Shown here: positions 8,513 through 59,627 of the stretch, in pieces | How the letters are laid out: every line of letters starts with the position of its first letter | How positions within the stretch are numbered: position 1 is the first letter of the stretch | Assembly: GCF_904426505.1 (NCBI RefSeq) | Contig: NZ_CAJGBN010000023.1 | Coordinates: forward strand, 186,001 to 250,000 | Origin: Rubrivivax sp. A210 | GTDB taxonomy: Bacteria; Pseudomonadota; Gammaproteobacteria; Burkholderiales; Burkholderiaceae_C | Direction: 5' to 3' | DNA length: 64,000 nucleotides | Made by a program: the position numbers and the translations under genes | The notes under the pieces: generated by a model | Database searches by the model: none | What the model was told of the DNA's origin: nothing | The model's input: the letters and a program-made list of their open reading frames with translations, nothing else

Positions 8513-11500
8513 ATGGTCGCACCGCTGCGACGAGGGACTGCACGGGGGTTTGCGCTTGTAAGGGCCACCCTCTGCGCCGCGTTTCTTGCCGCCACGGCGC
8601 CCGCCAGCGCCGCCAGCGCGGCCACCGCGCCCGCATCCCTGGCCGAGCCGGTGTTCGAGTCCATAGGCCGCTCGGCCATCGCCCGCGACGTCGTCGCCGG
8701 CCTCGCACAAGACCGCGCCGGCTTCCTGTGGGTGGGCACGGGCGACGGCCTGATGCGCTACGACGGCTACCAGTTTCGTCCCCAGGAGCGCCAGACCCTC
8801 GATCCCACCCGCCGCAACCTGGGCTGGGTGAGCGCCATGCTGTCGGCACGCGACGGCAGGCTCTGGATAGGCACCGAGACCCAGGGCCTGGCCAGCTTCG
8901 ACCCGCGCACCGGCAGCGTCACGCTGTATGGCGGCCAGGAGGGCAAGCCCGAGGCGACGAGCCGCATCCTGGCCCTTGCCGAAGGCGCCGACGGCGCGAT
9001 CTGGGCCGGCCACCTTGCCGATGGCCTGGTGCGCCACGACCCGCGCACCGGCGCCCGCACGCACTACCGCCAGGGCGAACAGGCGGGCAGCCTGCCCGGC
9101 AACCGGGTCGAGGCCCTGCTGATGGACCGTGCCGGCACGCTGTGGGTGGGAACCTGGCAGGGACTGAGCCGGCTGGCGGCCGGCAGCGAGCGCTTCGAGA
9201 CCGTGCTGTCGCGCCCAGCGGCCGAGCCCGCCAGCCGCGTCGTGCAAAGCCTGCTGGAAGCGCCCGACGGCCGCATCTGGGTCGGCATGCAGGACGGCGA
9301 GCTGGCCTGGGTCGACCCCCACGGCGGCAACGGCCCGACCGTGTACCCGGCGCCGGCGGCGGCCGGCCGCGGCGGCATCACCAGCATGGTGCTGGCGCCG
9401 GGCGGGCCGCTGTGGGTGGGCCACGGCACCGGCATCGACCTCGTAGCCCCCGCCGAAGGCCATCTGCTGCGACGCCTGAGCCGCGACCCCTCCAACCCCG
9501 ATGGCCTGGCGGCCAATGAAGTGACCAGCCTGCTGCTCGACAGCTCAGGCAGCATCTGGGTGGGCGGCATCGGCGTGGGCCTGCAGCGGCACGACCCCGG
9601 CAACCGCGGCATCGTGGTGCTCGGCGTTGCCGCCGCAGCCGGTGCGCCGCTGCGCGAGGTCGATGTGCGCGGCGTGCTGCCGCTGGACAACGGCGACATC
9701 TGGCTGGCCATCAACGGCGGCGAGCTGGCCGTGCTCGATCCCGGATGGAAGCTGCGGCTGCGCTTCGAGCCGCCGCTGCCCGCCATCCAGGCCATGGCCC
9801 AGCACCGGGATGGCACGGTCTGGCTCGGTACCCACGACGCCCTGCACCAGTTCAGCCGCGAGCGGCGGCCGTTGCGGGTGCTGAGCCACGATGGCGGCAA
9901 CGCGCACCGCATCCTGGCCAGCGGCGATGGCAGCCTGTGGGTCGGCACCCAGGACGGCCTTCATGTGCTGCGACCCGGCACGGCGGCACTGGCGCGCATC
10001 GTCCAGGCCGGCGGCGCGGTGCTGTCCGGCGACATCTATGCCCTGGCCGAGGCGCCCGACGGCAGCCTCTGGGTGGGCGCTGCGGGCGGCCTCTACACCG
10101 TCGACCCGGCAAGCAACGCGGCCCGGCCGGTGGGCGAGCCGCAGGGCCGCGGCCTCGGCAGCCCGGTCGTCATCGGCCTGCTCTTCGACCGCCAGGGCGT
10201 GTTGTGGGTGGACACCGCGGTGGCCGGCCTGCACCGGCGCGTGGGCTGGGATGGCGAACACGCCAGCTTCGACCGCATCAGCGCCCGCCACGGGGTCACC
10301 AACCGCCCCTTCGGCTCCAACCTGCTCGACGATGGCCGTGGCCGCATCTGGACGCACATGTACGTCTACGACCGGGCGCGCGACCACCTGCACGAGCTGA
10401 CCCCCGCCGACGGCGCACGCCTGGGCAATGGCCGCTTCCTTGCCTATGCCAAGACCGCCGACGGCCACCTGCTCTTCGGCGGCACCAAGGGCCTGATGGT
10501 GGTGCGGCCCGAGGCCTTCGACCGCTCGGCCTACTCGCCGCAGCTGGTGGCGTCGGAACTGCGCGTCAACGGCGAGCCGCGCAAGCTCGGTGAGCTGCAG
10601 GACAGGCTGCAGATCGCCCCGCCCGACCGCGCCTTCAGCCTGGAGTTCGCCGCGCTGGACTACGCCGACCCGCGCCACATCCGCTATGCCTACCGGCTGA
10701 TGGGCTACGACCCCGAATGGATAGCCACCGGCGCCGACCTGCGCGTGGCCAGCTACAGCAACCTGCTGCCGGGCGACTATGTGCTGCAGGTGCGCGCCAC
10801 CAACCGCAGCGGGCTGTGGAGCCCCAACGAGCTGGCCATCAAGGTGCAGGTGCTGCCGGCCTGGTGGCAGACCAAGAGCTTCGGCGCTGCCGTGGTGCTG
10901 ACCGTGCTGCTGACCGCCGGACTGGCTGTCTACGGCGCCGTGGCCCGCCACACCGCGGTGCTGCGGCGCCGGCAGGAAGCGCTGGAAGCCCAGGTGCGGG
11001 AGCGCACGGCCACGCTGGAGGCGATGTCCGACGAACTGCGCACCAAGACGGCCGAACTCGAACGCTCCAGCCAGACCGACCCCCTCACCGGCATGGCCAA
11101 CCGCCGCTTCCTGGCCGAGCACATCGAGCACGACGTGGCGCTGTCGCTGCGGCGCCATGAAGACGTGTTGCTGCACGGCGCACCGCCGCACGAGGACGCC
11201 GACATCGTCTTCTTCCTCGTCGACATCGACCACTTCAAGGCCGTCAACGACGACTACGGCCACCCCGCCGGCGACGAGGTGCTGATCGAGATGCACCAGC
11301 GCCTGCGCCTGGTCTTCCGCGAGACCGACTACCTGGTGCGCTGGGGTGGCGAGGAATTCCTCATCGTCGCCCGCAGCACCACGCGCGCCTGCGCCGCCGA
11401 ACTGGCCGAACGCGTGCGCACGACCGTGGGCAACCTGCCCTTCGTGCTGAGCGAAGGCGTGCGGGTGCAGAAAACCTGCTCCATCGGCTACGCCTGCTTC

Positions 11501-51514: not shown

Positions 51515-51769
51515 TCAGCAGGCCAGCATTTCCGAGCGCGAGCGGATCAGCTCGCGCGCCCGGTTCAGCGCGTACTGGAGGGCCTCGTCGGCCGAGCGCC
51601 AGCGATAGCCGCAGGCCAGGCTGTCGTCGCGGAAGGCCTCGCGCCGCCCAGCCGCCGCGCCCTGGACGCGGTTGACGATGAGGGCGGCGATATAGCCGTC
51701 GCCGCGCGGCGCTTCGAGCGCACCGACGAAGATGCGGTAGTCGCCTTCATGGCATTCGTCGAATCGCAT
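51515..51769 (-). CDS. Small protein of unknown function
   Basis: 84 residues from the ATG at 51769, preceded by GTGAGG; a longer frame to 51841 reads through sequence that looks non-coding. It contains YRIFVGALEAPRGDGYIAALIVNRVQG and a helical C-terminus (SADEALQYALNRARELI). No family recognised. Soluble, no signal peptide. Its stop abuts the stop of the DUF4337 gene. Confidence 0.6.
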   Translation of the reverse strand: MRFDECHEGDYRIFVGALEAPRGDGYIAALIVNRVQGAAAGRREAFRDDSLACGYRWRSADEALQYALNRARELIRSRSEMLAC

Positions 51770-54900: not shown

Positions 54901-55180
54901 CCGCCACGCGCTGGTGGACGGCACGCTGACGACCCAGCCCGAGTACTCGTTCTGGTTCAAGGACGTCGGCTGGGGTGTCGAGAACTACGGCACCGATCCG
55001 CAGATCGAGGTCGACAACGCGCCGCAGGACGACGCCTTCAATGCACCCGAGCGCGACCGACAACTCGCCGCCGCGCTGGCCGAGGCGCTGGCGGCGCGCG
55101 AGCGCGTCGGCGTCGCGCGGCCGGCCTTCGGGCCGCGGCCGCGGCTGGCGGCACCCCAGCTGCCGCCGCGGCCGCAATGA
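51941..55180 (+). CDS. Tricorn protease homologue (S41 family)
   Basis: 1079 residues, ATG at 51941 with a perfect AAGGAGG six bases upstream. Order: two beta-propellers (VVFVADDDLWRASIHGG, and RWKRYRGGTAGHLWVEDDE through LFEVASGRSLLATEPAFRDWAP), the core C1 domain, a PDZ domain (GVQVRPGEAIVAVGGQPV), and the C2 catalytic domain. Catalytic residues correspond to His in GTSHAYE, Ser in NEHAGSDGD and Glu in VENYGTDPQIEV. It is a cytoplasmic oligopeptide-trimming protease. The LHLPDMMSAGFAEF and DLRYNRGG motifs are typical. It starts an operon with the methyltransferase and the small unknown gene. Confidence 0.95.
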   Translation: MSPDTPPAAPPVVPPPAYFRQPGLQGETVVFVADDDLWRASIHGGPAQRLSAGLSEPATPCLSPCGQWLAFAGRDEQHSEVWLMPAVGGPARRLSWLGSELAVRGFLPDGRILFTSNHGQPFFRNGHAWAVSPAGGLPERLPLGQVQHLAFGPGGRRVIGRNTADPARWKRYRGGTAGHLWVEDDESGGTFTRLAGLKGNLTCPMWLNGRIYFLGDGEGVGNLYSVLPDGSGLRRHSDHADFYARHAACDGRRIVYQCGAELWLYDPVDDRTRRLDIAVPSARTQAARRFVPAAEHLQGLALHPAGHSLALEARGQLFTMALWEGAVRRHGLAPARRRLGQWLADGERLVATSDASGEDRIELLGPAGVRELPWDAFGRPTALATAPTGARLALANHRNELWLGDVDSGSLSLVDRSEFGRIEGPAWSPCAGWLAYTYPTSARHTAIKLFEVASGRSLLATEPAFRDWAPAFDPSGRYLYFLSLRTFDPVYDAVQFDLSFPRAARPYLLALQAGGPPLFEPAPRGMKSEEPAAGADAKAPLPAIEPEGLARRVAAFPVPEGRFGQIAGVAGGKVIWTALPIPGAHGRGGHKESPGRLEVYDLASGELKTLAAQADAFVIAADHQTLLVRTGQKLRALDAAKAPEDKPAAADDKPSRKSGHIDLARVRLAVDPPQEWAQILREVWRLQRDHFWVEDMSGVAWTAMLERYAPLLARVATRGELSDLIWELQGELGTSHAYEMGGDHRKPPAVALGHLAADLKPAANGWEIMRTVQGDAWDATADSPLNAVGVQVRPGEAIVAVGGQPVSAEQPPQALLVNQAGAKVALTLAAADGSTREVLVTALADETPARYREWVERNRAWVHAAGGGRVGYLHLPDMMSAGFAEFHRAFAAESDRDALIVDLRYNRGGHVSQLLLEKVARRRIAWNTLRWGQPESYPDAAPTGAVVALTNEHAGSDGDIFSHGFKLMGLGTLVGMRTWGGVIGIWPRHALVDGTLTTQPEYSFWFKDVGWGVENYGTDPQIEVDNAPQDDAFNAPERDRQLAAALAEALAARERVGVARPAFGPRPRLAAPQLPPRPQ

Positions 55181-56829
55181 ACGGGCCGGCCCCGCTGCCC
55201 ACCGCAGCGCCCGATCTGGCCATGCGCCTGGCCCAGGCCGGTGGCTGGCGCCGGCTGATCCAGGATTTCCGGCCGCTGTGCCAGAGCCTGGAATGGCGAC
55301 TGGGCCAGCAGGCCTGGAAGACGCAGGGTGCGCGCACCTTCAGCGAAGGCGGCGTGCCCTACATCGTCAACAACTCGGGCACGCTGTCGGCCTGCGTCGC
55401 GCGGCTGCTGCTGGACGGCCTGGAAGAAGCGCCAGTCACCGGGCCGATCCGCCTGCTTGAACTGGGCGCCGGCAACGGCCTGTTCGCGCGCTACCTGCTG
55501 GACGAGTTGCAGCGCCTTTGCGCCGAGCAGGGCCGCAGCGACTACGAGCGATTGGAGTTCTGGGTCAGCGACGCCTCGCCGGCGATGGTGGACGCATGGC
55601 GACAGCGCGGCCAGTTCGAACCCCACGCCGCCCGCGTGCAGTTGCACGCCTGCCCGGCCGCAGCAGCGGCGGCCCTGCAGCCCGGGCCCTGGCACGCCGT
55701 GTTTGCCAACTACGTGCTCGACGTGCTGCCAGCCGACGTGGTGCGCCGTGGCGAGGCCGGCTGGGAACAGCTGCATCTGCGCTGCTGGACGCAGGCCGAC
55801 GCCGCCACGCTGCGCCAGTACACCGCACAGTCCGTCGAGGCCCTGCAGGCCCTGGCCGAAACCGACGACGAGGCGGCGCACGAGGCGCTGGCCCCGCTGT
55901 TGCCGGTGCTGGAGAGCGAAGCCGCCTTCCGGCCCGCCGACGGGGCCCAGGCGGCGCGCTGGCACCTGGACGACGGCGCGGCGGCGACAGAAAGGCCGTT
56001 CACCGTCAACTGGGGCGCGCTGGACTGCCTGGACGCCTTGTTGCCGCGCCTGGCTGCCGGCGGCTTCTGCCTGATCAGCGACTTCGTCGCCGAACCCGGC
56101 CAGGGCGCCCAGCGTTTCGGCCCGACGACGGCGCTGGGGCTGAACCTGGAAGCGCTCGAGCGCCATGTGCGGGGCGCCGGCTTCGACATCGCCGCCGCCG
56201 CGGGTGACGGCGAGCTGCCGCTGCGCCACCGCTTGATCACGCCGGGCCTGTCGCCGCGGCTGGCGGCTCGCTTCGATCACGAACTGGGCGCACCGGCCTG
56301 GCGTTGGCGCGACGAGCCGCGCGAACAAGCGCAGGCCCGCGCTGCGGCGGGCCATACGGCGCAGGCGCTCGAGCAGTTCCGGCTGGCCCTCGAACGCGTG
56401 CCCGGCGACTGGGCCGTGCTGCACCTGGCGGCCGAGTTCGCCACGGCACAGCTGCGTGACTTCGCGCTGGCGCGCGACCTGGCCCAGGCCGCGCTGGCGC
56501 GCAACCCCTGGACCGACCACCGCCTGTGGAACACGCTGGGCGAGGCCTGGCTGGGCCTGGGCCAGCCGGCGCAGGCGCTGGGCTGCCACCTGCAGGCGCT
56601 GCGCCTCCACGCCCGCGACGCCGGCACCTGGCTGGCACTGGCGCGCTGCCGGCTGGCGCTGGAACAGCCCGGCGAGGCCCTGGAAGCCATCGCCCGCGGC
56701 CTGGCCTGCGACACGCAGGCCATGTATCGCCACCTGCTGCTGGCCGAGCAGCCCCGGGCGCTGGACCTGCTGGCGCGAAGTTTCGGTGCCGAGCGCGCAG
56801 CACAGGCACGCCGTCGCGCAGGCTGTTAG
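55177..56829 (+). CDS. SAM-dependent methyltransferase with TPR repeats
   Basis: 550 residues. The N-terminal methyltransferase domain has SAM motif I LLELGAGNGLFARYLLDEL (about residues 92-110), FWVSDASPAMVDAW and FANYVLDVLPADVV, close in style to MidA/NDUFAF7-like protein-arginine methyltransferases. The C-terminal 170 residues contain about four TPR-type repeats (AQALEQFRLALERVPGDWAV, RDLAQAALARNPWTDHRLW, ALGCHLQALRLHARDAGTW). It probably modifies a protein. Coupled to the tricorn gene by a 4-bp overlap. Confidence 0.85.
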   Translation: MNGPAPLPTAAPDLAMRLAQAGGWRRLIQDFRPLCQSLEWRLGQQAWKTQGARTFSEGGVPYIVNNSGTLSACVARLLLDGLEEAPVTGPIRLLELGAGNGLFARYLLDELQRLCAEQGRSDYERLEFWVSDASPAMVDAWRQRGQFEPHAARVQLHACPAAAAAALQPGPWHAVFANYVLDVLPADVVRRGEAGWEQLHLRCWTQADAATLRQYTAQSVEALQALAETDDEAAHEALAPLLPVLESEAAFRPADGAQAARWHLDDGAAATERPFTVNWGALDCLDALLPRLAAGGFCLISDFVAEPGQGAQRFGPTTALGLNLEALERHVRGAGFDIAAAAGDGELPLRHRLITPGLSPRLAARFDHELGAPAWRWRDEPREQAQARAAAGHTAQALEQFRLALERVPGDWAVLHLAAEFATAQLRDFALARDLAQAALARNPWTDHRLWNTLGEAWLGLGQPAQALGCHLQALRLHARDAGTWLALARCRLALEQPGEALEAIARGLACDTQAMYRHLLLAEQPRALDLLARSFGAERAAQARRRAGC

Positions 56830-56876: not shown

Positions 56877-57302
56877 ATGCTCACGCTCGCCAAGAACGCC
56901 ATCGCTGGTACCGTGATGGGTCGGCCGGTCAACGCCTTCGCGCTCGACGGCAAGGCCGATGCCGCCCCGGCGCCCGGTGAATACGACCTGCTGCCACCGC
57001 TGGAAGACCCGGTCTTCGGCGTCTACATCATCGCGGTGCGCCGCGGCTCGGGCTTCAAGCCCGGCTACGACTGGCGCAAGCTGACGGCCGAACCCGGGGT
57101 GGCGGTGCGCCACGAGGGCATCAAGCTGCCGACCACGCGCATGGTCGAATGGAAGATGCCCGCAGGAGCTTCCAGCGAAGACTCCTTCGTGCTGAGCAAG
57201 CAGCCGATTCCAGGCCGCAATTGCGTCGTGCTGGCCTCCGGCTTTGCGGACCTGCTGGAAGCCTTGAAGGGCGCACCCGAGGCGGCGTTGACCGTCATTT
57301 GA
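56877..57302 (+). CDS. 141-residue protein of unknown function
   Basis: ATG at 56877 with AGGGAGG 9 nt upstream. No signal peptide and no membrane helix. It has MGRPVNAFALDGKADAAPAPGEYDLLPPLEDPVFGVYIIAV, then two further beta-rich stretches ending in APEAALTVI. Not recognised. It lies 47 bp after the methyltransferase on the same strand and its 3' end overlaps the convergent TfuA gene by 8 bp. It is the smallest gene beside the YcaO-TfuA pair, which makes it worth testing as a substrate or partner, although it lacks a leader/core layout. Confidence 0.72.
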   Translation: MLTLAKNAIAGTVMGRPVNAFALDGKADAAPAPGEYDLLPPLEDPVFGVYIIAVRRGSGFKPGYDWRKLTAEPGVAVRHEGIKLPTTRMVEWKMPAGASSEDSFVLSKQPIPGRNCVVLASGFADLLEALKGAPEAALTVI

Positions 57303-58449
57303 GGCCGGCCCCGCGCGCCAGCCAGTGGCGGTACTGGCCGCTGGCCTTGACCTCGTCCAGCAGGGCCTGATCGAACGGGCCGGGGCGGCTGGCGGCCCAG
57401 CGCGCGGCGCGGGCCTGCGTCGCAAGCCAGCGCATCAGGTCGTCGCGGCTGGCATGTTGCTCGGCCAGCCAGCGCCGCACCGCGACTTCGTCGCCCAGGC
57501 CGTGCCGCGCACACAAGGCCTGCGACTGCGCCAGCAGCTCGGTCGCTTCCGGCCAGGGCGGCTCGCCGTGTCCACCGCCGTCGGCCAGCATCCGGGCCAA
57601 GGCCGCGGCCTGCACCGCTGCAGCACCCGCCGGGTCGCGCGCCAGCGCCGCCAGCACCTGCCGGTCTTCTTCGCAGCGGGCCTCGTCCCGGGCGTCTTCC
57701 CCGGCCTCGACTTCGGCCTGCAGCACGGCCCAGTCCAGTGTCGGCTCGAAGCGGAAGGCCGGCTGCGGCACGGGCCTGCCCTGCGCCGCCAGCCCGGCCA
57801 GTTGCCGCAGCAACGCTTGCGCATCGGCCGCTTTCTGGTCAAGGCGCCCCAGCGGCCACCAGGCGCGCAAGGCCGCGGCCGCGGCGGCCGCCAGGCCTTG
57901 CTCCAGCGCCACGTCCAGCGCGGCATCGAAGCTGCGCGCCGGGTAGTAGAGGCTCCTGGCGGCGGCCCGCACGCGCTGCGCGTCGGCGGGCGCCAGCACG
58001 CCGGCAGCCTGCGCCGCGTCCAGCGTGGCGCGCAGGTTCACCAAGGGTTCGGACAAGGGCAGCCAGCCGGTTTCGGCAGGACCGTGGAGCAGCGCCACCT
58101 CGTCGTCGTCTTCCAGCACGCCGTCGCGGTAGGCCTCGTAGATGCGACCGACGCCGACCATGCCGAAGGCAGCGGTCTCGGACGCGCGCAGCGCTCCCAT
58201 GCTGGCGGCACCCAGCACATGGATGCCTTCGCTCAGCGCCCACAGGATCTCCTTGTGCCAGACCGAGGGCTGGGCATGGAAGACGCCGTCGATGAGGCCG
58301 ATGGCGAAGGGCCGCGACAGTGCGGCGCGGTAGAGATCGCCTTGCGCAGCCGGGGGCCGGTAGTCGGCATCCAAGAGAGCGCGCGCCTGCGCCAGCGGCA
58401 GCGAGGGGCCCAGGAAGACGATGCAACGGCGGGTGTCGGGCAGCGCCAT
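57295..58449 (-). CDS. TfuA-like thioamidation partner protein
   Basis: 384 residues. The TfuA domain (about 10-130) is clear: IVFLGPSLPLAQARALL, YRPPAAQGDLYRA, IGLIDGVFHAQPSVWHKEIL, HVLGAASMGALRASETAAFGM and YRDGVLEDDDEVALLHGP. TfuA proteins partner a YcaO enzyme and are thought to deliver sulfide or activate the peptide for thioamide formation. The remaining 250 residues are helical, Ala/Arg-rich and resemble the extended C-terminus of stand-alone TfuA proteins. Start and YcaO stop share one base (TGATG). Confidence 0.92.
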   Translation of the reverse strand: MALPDTRRCIVFLGPSLPLAQARALLDADYRPPAAQGDLYRAALSRPFAIGLIDGVFHAQPSVWHKEILWALSEGIHVLGAASMGALRASETAAFGMVGVGRIYEAYRDGVLEDDDEVALLHGPAETGWLPLSEPLVNLRATLDAAQAAGVLAPADAQRVRAAARSLYYPARSFDAALDVALEQGLAAAAAAALRAWWPLGRLDQKAADAQALLRQLAGLAAQGRPVPQPAFRFEPTLDWAVLQAEVEAGEDARDEARCEEDRQVLAALARDPAGAAAVQAAALARMLADGGGHGEPPWPEATELLAQSQALCARHGLGDEVAVRRWLAEQHASRDDLMRWLATQARAARWAASRPGPFDQALLDEVKASGQYRHWLARGAGLK

Positions 58450-59627
58450 CAGTCCTCCTGCGGCTCGCGCAGCCCAGGCACCACCACCCGCACCACGCTG
58501 GCCGGGATGCCCGGCAACGACAGGTCCAGCACGGCCACCTGTTCCAGCCCGGCACGGCGCAGCAGATCGAGCGCCAGCGCCACGTCCTCGTCGAAGCTGG
58601 CGAAATCGTGGCTGGGCGCCGCGGCGAAGGCGCGCGTGGCCGGCTCTCGCGCCTGGTCGCGCAACAGGCGCAGGTTGTCGCGGCTGCAGGCGCGCTCGTA
58701 ATCCGAGCGCCGGATGTCGTCGCGCGCACCGGCGATCAGCGTCACGCGGCTCTGCGCCGCCTCGGTGAGCGCGCGCAGCAGCGCGATGGCGCGCAGCGGG
58801 TGGCAGCCGCTGCCCCGGGCCGGCACCTGGGCCATGGCGGCGTCTTCGGCGGCGTCGACGATCAGGCACTCGAAGACCGGCAGGCCGATGGCGCCGCTCA
58901 GATCCCACACCGCCACCGCCATCTCGGCGCGGGCGAAGCGGCGCAGCGCGCTGCGGCAGTCGGCATCGTCGATGCTCGCCAGGTCGACCCGGCGGGCCTG
59001 TTGTTCGGCCGCCGTCTGGCCCTCGAACGTGCGCCGCGCGTCGCGCTCGACCAGTTCGCACAGCGCATGCGACACCGCCTCCAGCCGGTGGTTGCCCGAG
59101 GCCAGCCCATTGCTCGAGCCGGCAAAGCACTGCGGCTCGAGCAGGCGCGCGGGCGTGGCGTTCATGTGTACGCACTGGTAGGGCACCCACACCGGCTCCT
59201 GCCGCAGCCAGTCTTCGCCGGCCACCCACAGCAGCGGCAGCTGGCGGTGGAAGGGACTGCCCGGCTCCCGCGGCAGGCCATCGACATCGATCACCGCATG
59301 GCGGCGCGCCATCTCGGCGGCAGTGCCCAGGGCCAGCGGCAGGCGCATGTTCTCGGCGTGGTGGGCCTCGACGCTCTCCATGATCGCCGAGACACGCGCC
59401 GCGTCGGCGTCGAGGCCCTTGCCCTGCGATACCGACAGAGACCGCGAATTGGGGCGGCAGGCCTGGAACACCGGGATGCCGATGTGGTCCAGCCCGGTGA
59501 CGTTGGCCACCCGCGTGATGCCCAGGGCCGGGAGCAGCGGCCGCATGCGCGCCAGCGTCTCGGCCGGCGGCACCGCGCGGTGGGTGCCCGCCCGGTGAAG
59601 TTTGGGGGTGCGCTCGCCGTCCTGCAT
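58449..59627 (-). CDS. YcaO-family ATP-dependent cyclodehydratase/thioamidase
   Basis: 392 residues. The YcaO ATP-binding features are SQGKG (67-71), SAIMESVEAHHAE (80-92), HALCELVERDA (187-197) and ALTEAAQSRVTLIAGARDD (286-304). The C-terminus VVPGLREPQED lacks the PxPxP ending used by azoline-forming YcaOs. Coupling to TfuA predicts backbone amide-to-thioamide conversion on a peptide or protein, as in TfuA-YcaO systems such as methanogen McrA modification and thioviridamide/thiopeptin-type RiPPs. No precursor peptide gene with a typical leader/core is visible within several kb. Upstream gap to the DUF11 gene is only 38 bp, so all three may be co-transcribed. Confidence 0.93.
   Translation of the reverse strand: MQDGERTPKLHRAGTHRAVPPAETLARMRPLLPALGITRVANVTGLDHIGIPVFQACRPNSRSLSVSQGKGLDADAARVSAIMESVEAHHAENMRLPLALGTAAEMARRHAVIDVDGLPREPGSPFHRQLPLLWVAGEDWLRQEPVWVPYQCVHMNATPARLLEPQCFAGSSNGLASGNHRLEAVSHALCELVERDARRTFEGQTAAEQQARRVDLASIDDADCRSALRRFARAEMAVAVWDLSGAIGLPVFECLIVDAAEDAAMAQVPARGSGCHPLRAIALLRALTEAAQSRVTLIAGARDDIRRSDYERACSRDNLRLLRDQAREPATRAFAAAPSHDFASFDEDVALALDLLRRAGLEQVAVLDLSLPGIPASVVRVVVPGLREPQED

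Follow-up and report, generated by a model that had tools for sequence, protein, structure and literature searches.

Very few proteins with backbone thioamides are known to us, the examples being McrA and uL16. In Escherichia coli, YcaO thioamidates uL16 at Met82, which is flanked by Arg81 and Gly83; uL16 is a substrate as a folded protein and is not modified once digested, its loop was modeled in the YcaO active site, and the variant G83A is a poor substrate (excerpt of PMC13063428). In this study, we describe a YcaO–TfuA pair in a stretch of 64,000 nucleotides from Rubrivivax sp. A210 (contig NZ_CAJGBN010000023.1, positions 186,001 to 250,000 of the forward strand), hereafter the window, by whose positions the features are numbered. 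The pair is accompanied by the gene of a 141-residue protein, which we designate H, and by that of a methyltransferase with TPR repeats, which we designate TPRM. We incline, with restrained confidence, to the reading that these 4 genes form a self-contained modification module, in which H would be a folded substrate whose loop is thioamidated at a methionine and perhaps methylated. The observations behind this reading are the gene content, the co-occurrence of the 4 genes, the grouping of their YcaO proteins, and the predicted disorder of the H loop. No description of this module was found in the literature searched, by searches that were not aimed at H itself.

The YcaO–TfuA pair and its two recurrent neighbors

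The ycaO gene (58449–59627, minus strand) encodes a protein of 392 residues, presumably the ATP-dependent enzyme that activates the backbone amide, and the tfuA gene (57295–58449, minus strand) encodes a protein of 384 residues with a C-terminal extension of approximately 150 residues. YcaO matches PF02624 over profile positions 1–325 of 325 (E = 6.8e-75; 252.8 bits against a cut-off of 25.7), TfuA matches PF07812 (E = 1.3e-48; 164.1 bits against a cut-off of 30), and base 58449 is common to both genes, which confirms the coordinates, the full family signatures, and the one-base overlap that the original prediction had given for the pair from the DNA letters. The closest solved structure to YcaO is MJ1094 (6pe3, E = 2.3e-26). 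In the alignment with MJ1094, E84, E87, E191, E194-R195-D196, R285, E289, Q292, and R294 are kept, and these residues are invariant columns among 9 YcaO proteins; we take E84, E87, E191, E194-R195, R285, and E289 to bind ATP. The catalytic ATP-site residues, whose loss had been raised as an objection to an active enzyme, are therefore retained. From family membership it follows that a thioamide-forming enzyme should be encoded, and the pair probably swaps a backbone oxygen for sulfur in a protein.

The best NCBIfam matches for both YcaO and TfuA are the models of the pair that thioamidates a glycine of McrA, and both scores are under the equivalog cut-offs (TIGR03266 and NF033432, 226.5 of 365 and 218.2 of 235.2 bits), that of TfuA against NF033432 in spite of an E-value of 8.2e-65. 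With the uL16/S12-type YcaO model NF040716, the window YcaO scores 27.5 bits, far below the cut-off of 700. Because the pair is closest to the McrA pair but below its equivalog cut-offs, and far from the uL16/S12-type model, it is by these profile scores an intact TfuA–YcaO pair of a separate lineage.

A search of genome contigs with the window YcaO as the single query found no relative; an alignment of the 9 YcaO proteins as the query succeeded, with 371 relatives, of which the best 80 were kept and yielded 79 loci. Together with 8 others and the window, these make up 88 YcaO loci, 87 of which also contain TfuA. Seven window genes were compared with the 87 other loci by tblastn at a threshold of 1e-3. 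The H gene (56877–57302, plus strand), the candidate substrate, matches exactly 2 of them, L024 (E = 1e-16) and L025 (E = 9e-7), and the TPRM gene (55177–56829, plus strand) matches exactly the same 2 (E = 7e-92 and 2e-77, with protein identities of 44% and 40%, respectively). L024 (genome G100) and L025, which are metagenome-assembled genomes of Bryobacterales (Acidobacteriota), hold the 2 best YcaO matches among the best 80 of 371. TPRM (550 residues) is composed of a Methyltransf_28-type methyltransferase (PF02636; 44.3 bits against a cut-off of 23.3, and 35.6 bits for the L024 protein), which we take to be of the MidA/NDUFAF7 type, and C-terminal TPR repeats, and is a candidate second modifying enzyme.

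As an independent test, 257 genomes belonging to the order of G100 were searched with an H profile. Three genomes matched, namely the 2 already known and G184, on whose contig L107 the YcaO, TfuA, H, and TPRM genes are adjacent in the same order as in the window. All 4 match the window proteins by tblastn, TPRM with 38% identity over 525 columns (E = 3e-71). H is thus seen in 4 genomes, the window's own and those of 3 Bryobacterales, every time within the four-gene module. The original prediction had proposed a target other than a precursor of ribosomally synthesized and post-translationally modified peptides (RiPPs), had listed the 141-residue gene and the TPR methyltransferase among the candidates for a partner or substrate, and had suggested a comparison of the neighborhoods of close homologs; this comparison identifies H and TPRM as the recurrent neighbors of the closest YcaO relatives, and their co-occurrence with this YcaO–TfuA lineage in 4 of 4 H-bearing genomes supports both proposals. 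The C-terminal extension of TfuA is similar, by alignment, in the module TfuA proteins of L024 and L025 and partly in that of L107, to which residues 302–374 match at E = 4e-7.

The genome sets searched for H overlap and are samples. The 61 genomes of relatives and the 398 of the phylum sample each gave a single match to H, that of the window's own genome; among the other 59 genomes of the genus list, the 36 included in the search of relatives gave none. Plasmids and phages gave no match to H at E = 0.1, viral contigs gave no confirmed relative, and plasmids gave no match to TPRM. The H protein of L107 matches phrog_35828, a phage protein family of unknown function, at E = 0.0015. With TPRM as the query, 281 of 396 genomes of G100's phylum matched; among the matches listed, only that of G100 is full length, and the remaining ones are partial and mostly cover the TPR part.

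The H gene is tail-to-tail with tfuA in 4 of 4 loci, at distances of −8 (window), −20 (L024), −4 (L025), and +35 bases (L107). TPRM lies 47–102 bases from H and is co-directional with it in 3 loci and opposed in L024. The H strand is opposite to that of the pair in all 4 loci; therefore, H is not co-transcribed with the pair. This arrangement would suit a different and rather unlikely reading, in which the substrate is encoded elsewhere, as McrA and uL16 are, and H is an accessory chaperone, adaptor, or sensor; uL16 is not encoded beside ycaO in E. coli (excerpt of PMC13063428). However, H is found only with this YcaO lineage, and the most variable part of H is a loop predicted to be disordered (described below), unlike the conserved surface of an adaptor. 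A housekeeping substrate also predicts a wide vertical spread, whereas a similar TfuA is present in only 7 of the 100 genomes searched, the window's own included, and H occurs, among relatives, in its own genome only. Of the 6 other TfuA matches, 2 reach 49–50% identity; these come from G064, which belongs to the same order, and from G031, which belongs to the same genus.

The distribution within the genus points to a patchy module. In the window, the start of TPRM shares 4 bases with an S41 protease gene. In 3 genus relatives (G023, G014, and G010), the S41 gene stays beside the small gene found at 51515 in the window, and the surrounding 14–20 kb contain no match at 1e-5 to TPRM, H, TfuA, or YcaO, nor to the DUF11, GNAT, M48, and CorA-like genes of the window (the contig of G010 reaches only 4.2 kb past the S41 gene). 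Since these S41-bearing relatives are without the module genes, the module probably represents acquired DNA on the downstream side of the S41 gene; nothing unusual is seen in its base composition. In G184, transposase-like frames flank the 4 genes on both sides (L107:3029–3943 and 10058–10639, by open reading frame (ORF) reading), which suggests that this copy is mobile.

In a YcaO tree of 67 rows, for which 28 Azospirillum-type rows had been thinned to 6 and L107 was represented solely by the longer intact frame, the 4 H-module YcaO proteins form one group (support 94/87), and so do the 3 from Bryobacterales (98/87).

The H protein, its variable loop, and a proposed modification

The 4 H members contain 125–192 residues and consist of 2 conserved halves that flank a middle variable in length and sequence. 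The N-terminal half is centered on PxGxYxxLxPxxDPxYG and the C-terminal half on FVLSxxPIxGxNxVxxxSGFxDLxxxL. The composition of the H gene is of the coding type (G+C by codon position, 0.67/0.49/0.85). None of the Pfam families, L,D-transpeptidase profiles included, matches any of the 4 proteins at E up to 10, the search of NCBIfam gave one chance-level match (E up to 1 for 3 members and 0.01 for the window's), and the sequence search of the PDB gave no match at E = 10. An AlphaFold2 model of H from the four-sequence input has a mean predicted local distance difference test (pLDDT) score of 68.8 and a predicted template modeling score of 0.67, and Foldseek returned no match to it at E ≤ 0.001. 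When 226 chains were re-aligned to H with VIA-align, 27 rows were listed, 25 of which are L,D-transpeptidases or their relatives; the 2 rows without such a name are 4xxt and 7ogp, and the absence of an entry from this list is not evidence. The Z-scores are at least 5.0 for 25 rows, over 86–103 residues, with a best value of 7.3 over 103 residues (Pgp2 7.3, LdtMt1 6.7, Csd6 6.3, DpaA 6.2, and Tlde1a 5.5). Pgp2, Csd6, DpaA, Bd1075, and Tlde1a are presumably L,D-transpeptidase relatives, although the VIA-align titles do not say so. H therefore looks like a degenerate L,D-transpeptidase fold in its model, as a lead only, because Z-scores below 8 can reflect mere arrangement; hhalign of H with 3 Tlde1_dom homologs aligned 23–28 columns, with a non-significant E of 0.03–0.07 for one pair. 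In the alignment, the position of the transpeptidase catalytic His is occupied by Ser or Thr in 4 of 4 H proteins (S107 in the window) and that of the Cys (C116) by Ser in 2 of 4; thus, H would not be an active transpeptidase.

The variable loop of H (residues 63–98; 57063–57170, plus strand), which is the proposed modification region, has pLDDT values under 50 in the AlphaFold2 model and is predicted to be disordered. In the 4-member alignment, its invariant columns are V77 and M94 (window numbering) and no others. The Met94 codon (57156–57158, plus strand) is the hypothetical thioamide site, and the methionine has the contexts KMP (window), RMG (L107), KMG (L024), and DMG (L025, twice); the L025 loop repeats IGWxxPAAIxFDMGPA. 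The tripeptide [KRDE]M[GP] is the sole tested pattern of the form class–rare residue–class that is common to all 4 loops. Of 5000 shuffles, none placed it in all 4 loops, and 4 did so for any pattern of this form. The likeness of this motif to the uL16 site Arg81-Met82-Gly83 (excerpt of PMC13063428) is suggestive, no more.

On this basis, the following mechanism can be proposed, in which the identity of the substrate, the site, the methylation, and the function of the product are inferred from genes and sequences. TfuA would free sulfide from a thiocarboxylated ThiS-type carrier, as is known for its family and considered in the discussion of PMC13063428 (excerpt); the host genome has 3 matches to the ThiS family PF02597. 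YcaO, by analogy with its family, would phosphorylate the backbone amide with ATP and thereby allow its conversion to a thioamide. H would be the target, its scaffold offering the flexible and variable loop to YcaO as uL16 offers its loop to the E. coli enzyme, and the likeliest site would be the invariant loop methionine in [KRDE]-M-[GP]. The Methyltransf_28 enzyme TPRM may methylate H as well. The modified H would stay a folded protein instead of yielding an excised peptide, because no protease or exporter was seen to accompany the module in the other loci.

The fate of the product separates this mechanism from one in which H is a RiPP precursor, with a thioamidated loop that is excised and leaves the cell as a small peptide, which we regard as quite unlikely. 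Many bacterial TfuA–YcaO loci resemble RiPP clusters, such as that of G031, which reads as an ordinary RiPP-type cluster from its ORFs, and the H loop is variable, and repeated in L025, in a manner reminiscent of thiovarsolin precursors (excerpt of PMC6511847). By contrast, conservation in H extends over both flanks of the loop, which does not resemble the order of a leader and a core, and no protease or exporter common to the 4 H-module loci was seen in ORF lists, which were read and not searched. Three of these contigs span only 8.8–10.6 kb, so genes farther out would be unseen there; the window S41 protease has no tblastn match on L107. In the window itself, neither a short leader/core gene nor an exporter was seen beside the pair in the ORF list, which was read without a dedicated precursor search, and a tandem-repeat scan reported nothing near the pair. 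The original prediction had stated that no leader/core gene, protease, or exporter was visible nearby; the S41 protease gene at the start of TPRM occurs in 3 relatives without the module. The small neighbor that recurs beside the pair is H, in whose 4-member alignment a leader–core order is absent, though it might be a precursor of an unusual kind.

Several points weigh against H as the modified substrate. The co-occurrence would also fit H as a chaperone, an immunity protein, or a binding partner. Tandem-repeat neighbors of other YcaO–TfuA loci (the P family, described below) also occur without an adjacent YcaO, and neighborhood alone can therefore mislead. A tree of 88 TfuA cores, weakly resolved and with a bootstrap that had not settled, splits the H-module rows, grouping the window with L062 (99/86) and L024 with L025 (100/96) and placing L107 elsewhere; L062 gave no tblastn match to H or TPRM, and neither was recognized in its ORF list. 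Because the YcaO tree groups the 4 H-module rows and the TfuA tree does not, a shared ancestry of enzyme and module is supported for YcaO and unproven for TfuA. The L107 YcaO is split over 2 reading frames and could thus represent a pseudogene or result from misassembly. Only 4 H sequences are available, and a single order supplied 3 of these. The loop boundaries were set manually, the Met motif was picked post hoc, and the shuffle ignores kinship. Finally, the residue after Met94 in the window H protein is Pro, not Gly.

Neighboring genes and other YcaO–TfuA loci

The upstream DUF11/SBBP secreted protein, the third candidate partner or substrate of the original prediction, has its gene on the strand of ycaO, 38 bases upstream, and the two could be co-transcribed. 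As a conserved partner it was rejected, since it has no tblastn match at 1e-3 in the 87 other loci (L024 and L025 included) nor on L107, and we consider it very improbable that this protein is the substrate. The M48 and GNAT genes of the window likewise have no match in the 87 other loci at this threshold. MnmA, whose gene lies 8 kb from the pair in the window, has its closest plasmid matches in records of Neisseria (62%) and E. coli (60%), as would suit a high-GC member of the Pseudomonadota.

The host genome contains a second YcaO (L002; G000:C1:203496–204452), beside which nitroreductase-like and radical-SAM/SPASM-like proteins were recognized by reading, with no family search. Because of these neighbors, the locus reads as an azole-type RiPP cluster, and L002 was rejected as the uL16 enzyme. 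In G031, the TfuA–YcaO genes lie near LanB-like, nitroreductase-like, and ABC-type genes (L015:8974–19721, by reading), and an annotated cluster of Paracoccus aminophilus pAMI4 has a similar make-up.

At 12 of the 88 loci, the pair is followed on the same strand by a member of the P family (L012:11587–12147, L013:5733–6230, L014:6185–7081, L046:14130–14759, L054:13954–14505, L063:6094–6717, L069:4697–5296, L071:7511–8134, L075:13428–14765, L082:12595–13092, L089:14058–14552, and L101:14051–14647). The members share a conserved domain, and 10 of the 12 also carry tandem repeats at the C terminus, which differ by group: YSGGKA (3 loci), GASVR, SGKRV (2 near-identical loci), SGANLG, SSGASL, SGQRVRA, and RGMSV. 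These proteins are candidate repeat-core precursors; 5 of the repeat strings were not found in the literature searched. In the YcaO tree, the 12 P-family rows and L043, a short contig, lie in a fork (89/93) that is drawn as open. A relation of H to the P family was not shown (hhalign probability 0.1%), a structure model of the family (mean pLDDT 49) was not used, and no member was found in the host genome, an empty result that is not evidence by itself. The family also matches 51 plasmid records, 49 of them from Rhizobium. On 2 Rhizobium plasmids (L168:5989–6567 and L169:5977–6567), the P-family protein, with SGGxxSR-type repeats, has a metalloprotease-like protein and an adenylate cyclase as neighbors. 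No YcaO–TfuA is annotated within the 12 kb shown, which argues against a strict link of the family to YcaO. A metalloprotease-like protein (AHEFGHS, by reading) is present at 11 YcaO loci, mostly those of the P family (for example, L014:7149–8417), and is a possible maturation protease.

Two further families recur. Among 87 clustered loci, 27, mostly of Azospirillum, encode a conserved protein of approximately 65 residues at a distance of approximately 190 bases upstream of ycaO (for example, L010:8634–8831 and L011:8647–8844); this protein is another candidate substrate. A Crp/Fnr-type regulator follows tfuA in a cluster of 30 loci.

Comparison with known systems

In the window pair, as in the pair that forms the thioglycine of McrA in methanogens (excerpt of PMC5589413), ycaO precedes tfuA and its stop overlaps the tfuA start; the window proteins differ in that they are below both equivalog cut-offs. 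Judged by 25 of 27 VIA-align rows, the modeled fold of H may resemble that of L,D-transpeptidases (YkuD/Tlde1); Foldseek and Pfam gave no match, and the His and Cys positions differ. To our knowledge, McrA is not expected in such a bacterium, in which no search for it was made.

With the systems of thioviridamide and thiovarsolin, the window shares YcaO plus TfuA, and the repeated core of the thiovarsolin precursor (excerpt of PMC6511847) has a parallel in the repeated H loop of L025. Unlike these thioamidated RiPPs, the window is without a short leader–core precursor in its ORF list, the variable part of H lies between conserved halves, and no shared protease or exporter is seen in the H-module loci.

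The proposal for H comes close to E. coli YcaO and uL16 in that the substrate would be a whole folded protein with a flexible loop and no precursor peptide nearby, and the loop methionine of the H family has, like that of the uL16 site, a charged residue before it and a small residue after it. The E. coli enzyme has a TPR domain and no TfuA (excerpt of PMC13063428), whereas the window YcaO comes with TfuA, H, and a methyltransferase and scores 27.5 against 700 bits with NF040716. It is possible, though doubtful, that the module represents a third style of YcaO–TfuA system, in which a dedicated but catalytically dead transpeptidase-like scaffold carries a fast-varying loop that is thioamidated at its methionine and methylated by the TPR-methyltransferase, the product being a folded protein whose binding or reactive loop is chemically altered and diversified. 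If so, “orphan” YcaO–TfuA pairs can own folded partners that precursor-peptide finders miss, and a module that carries the enzymes together with a folded substrate would make the rules of whole-protein thioamidation testable in E. coli. Such a style would differ both from a RiPP factory and from a modifier of a housekeeping protein.

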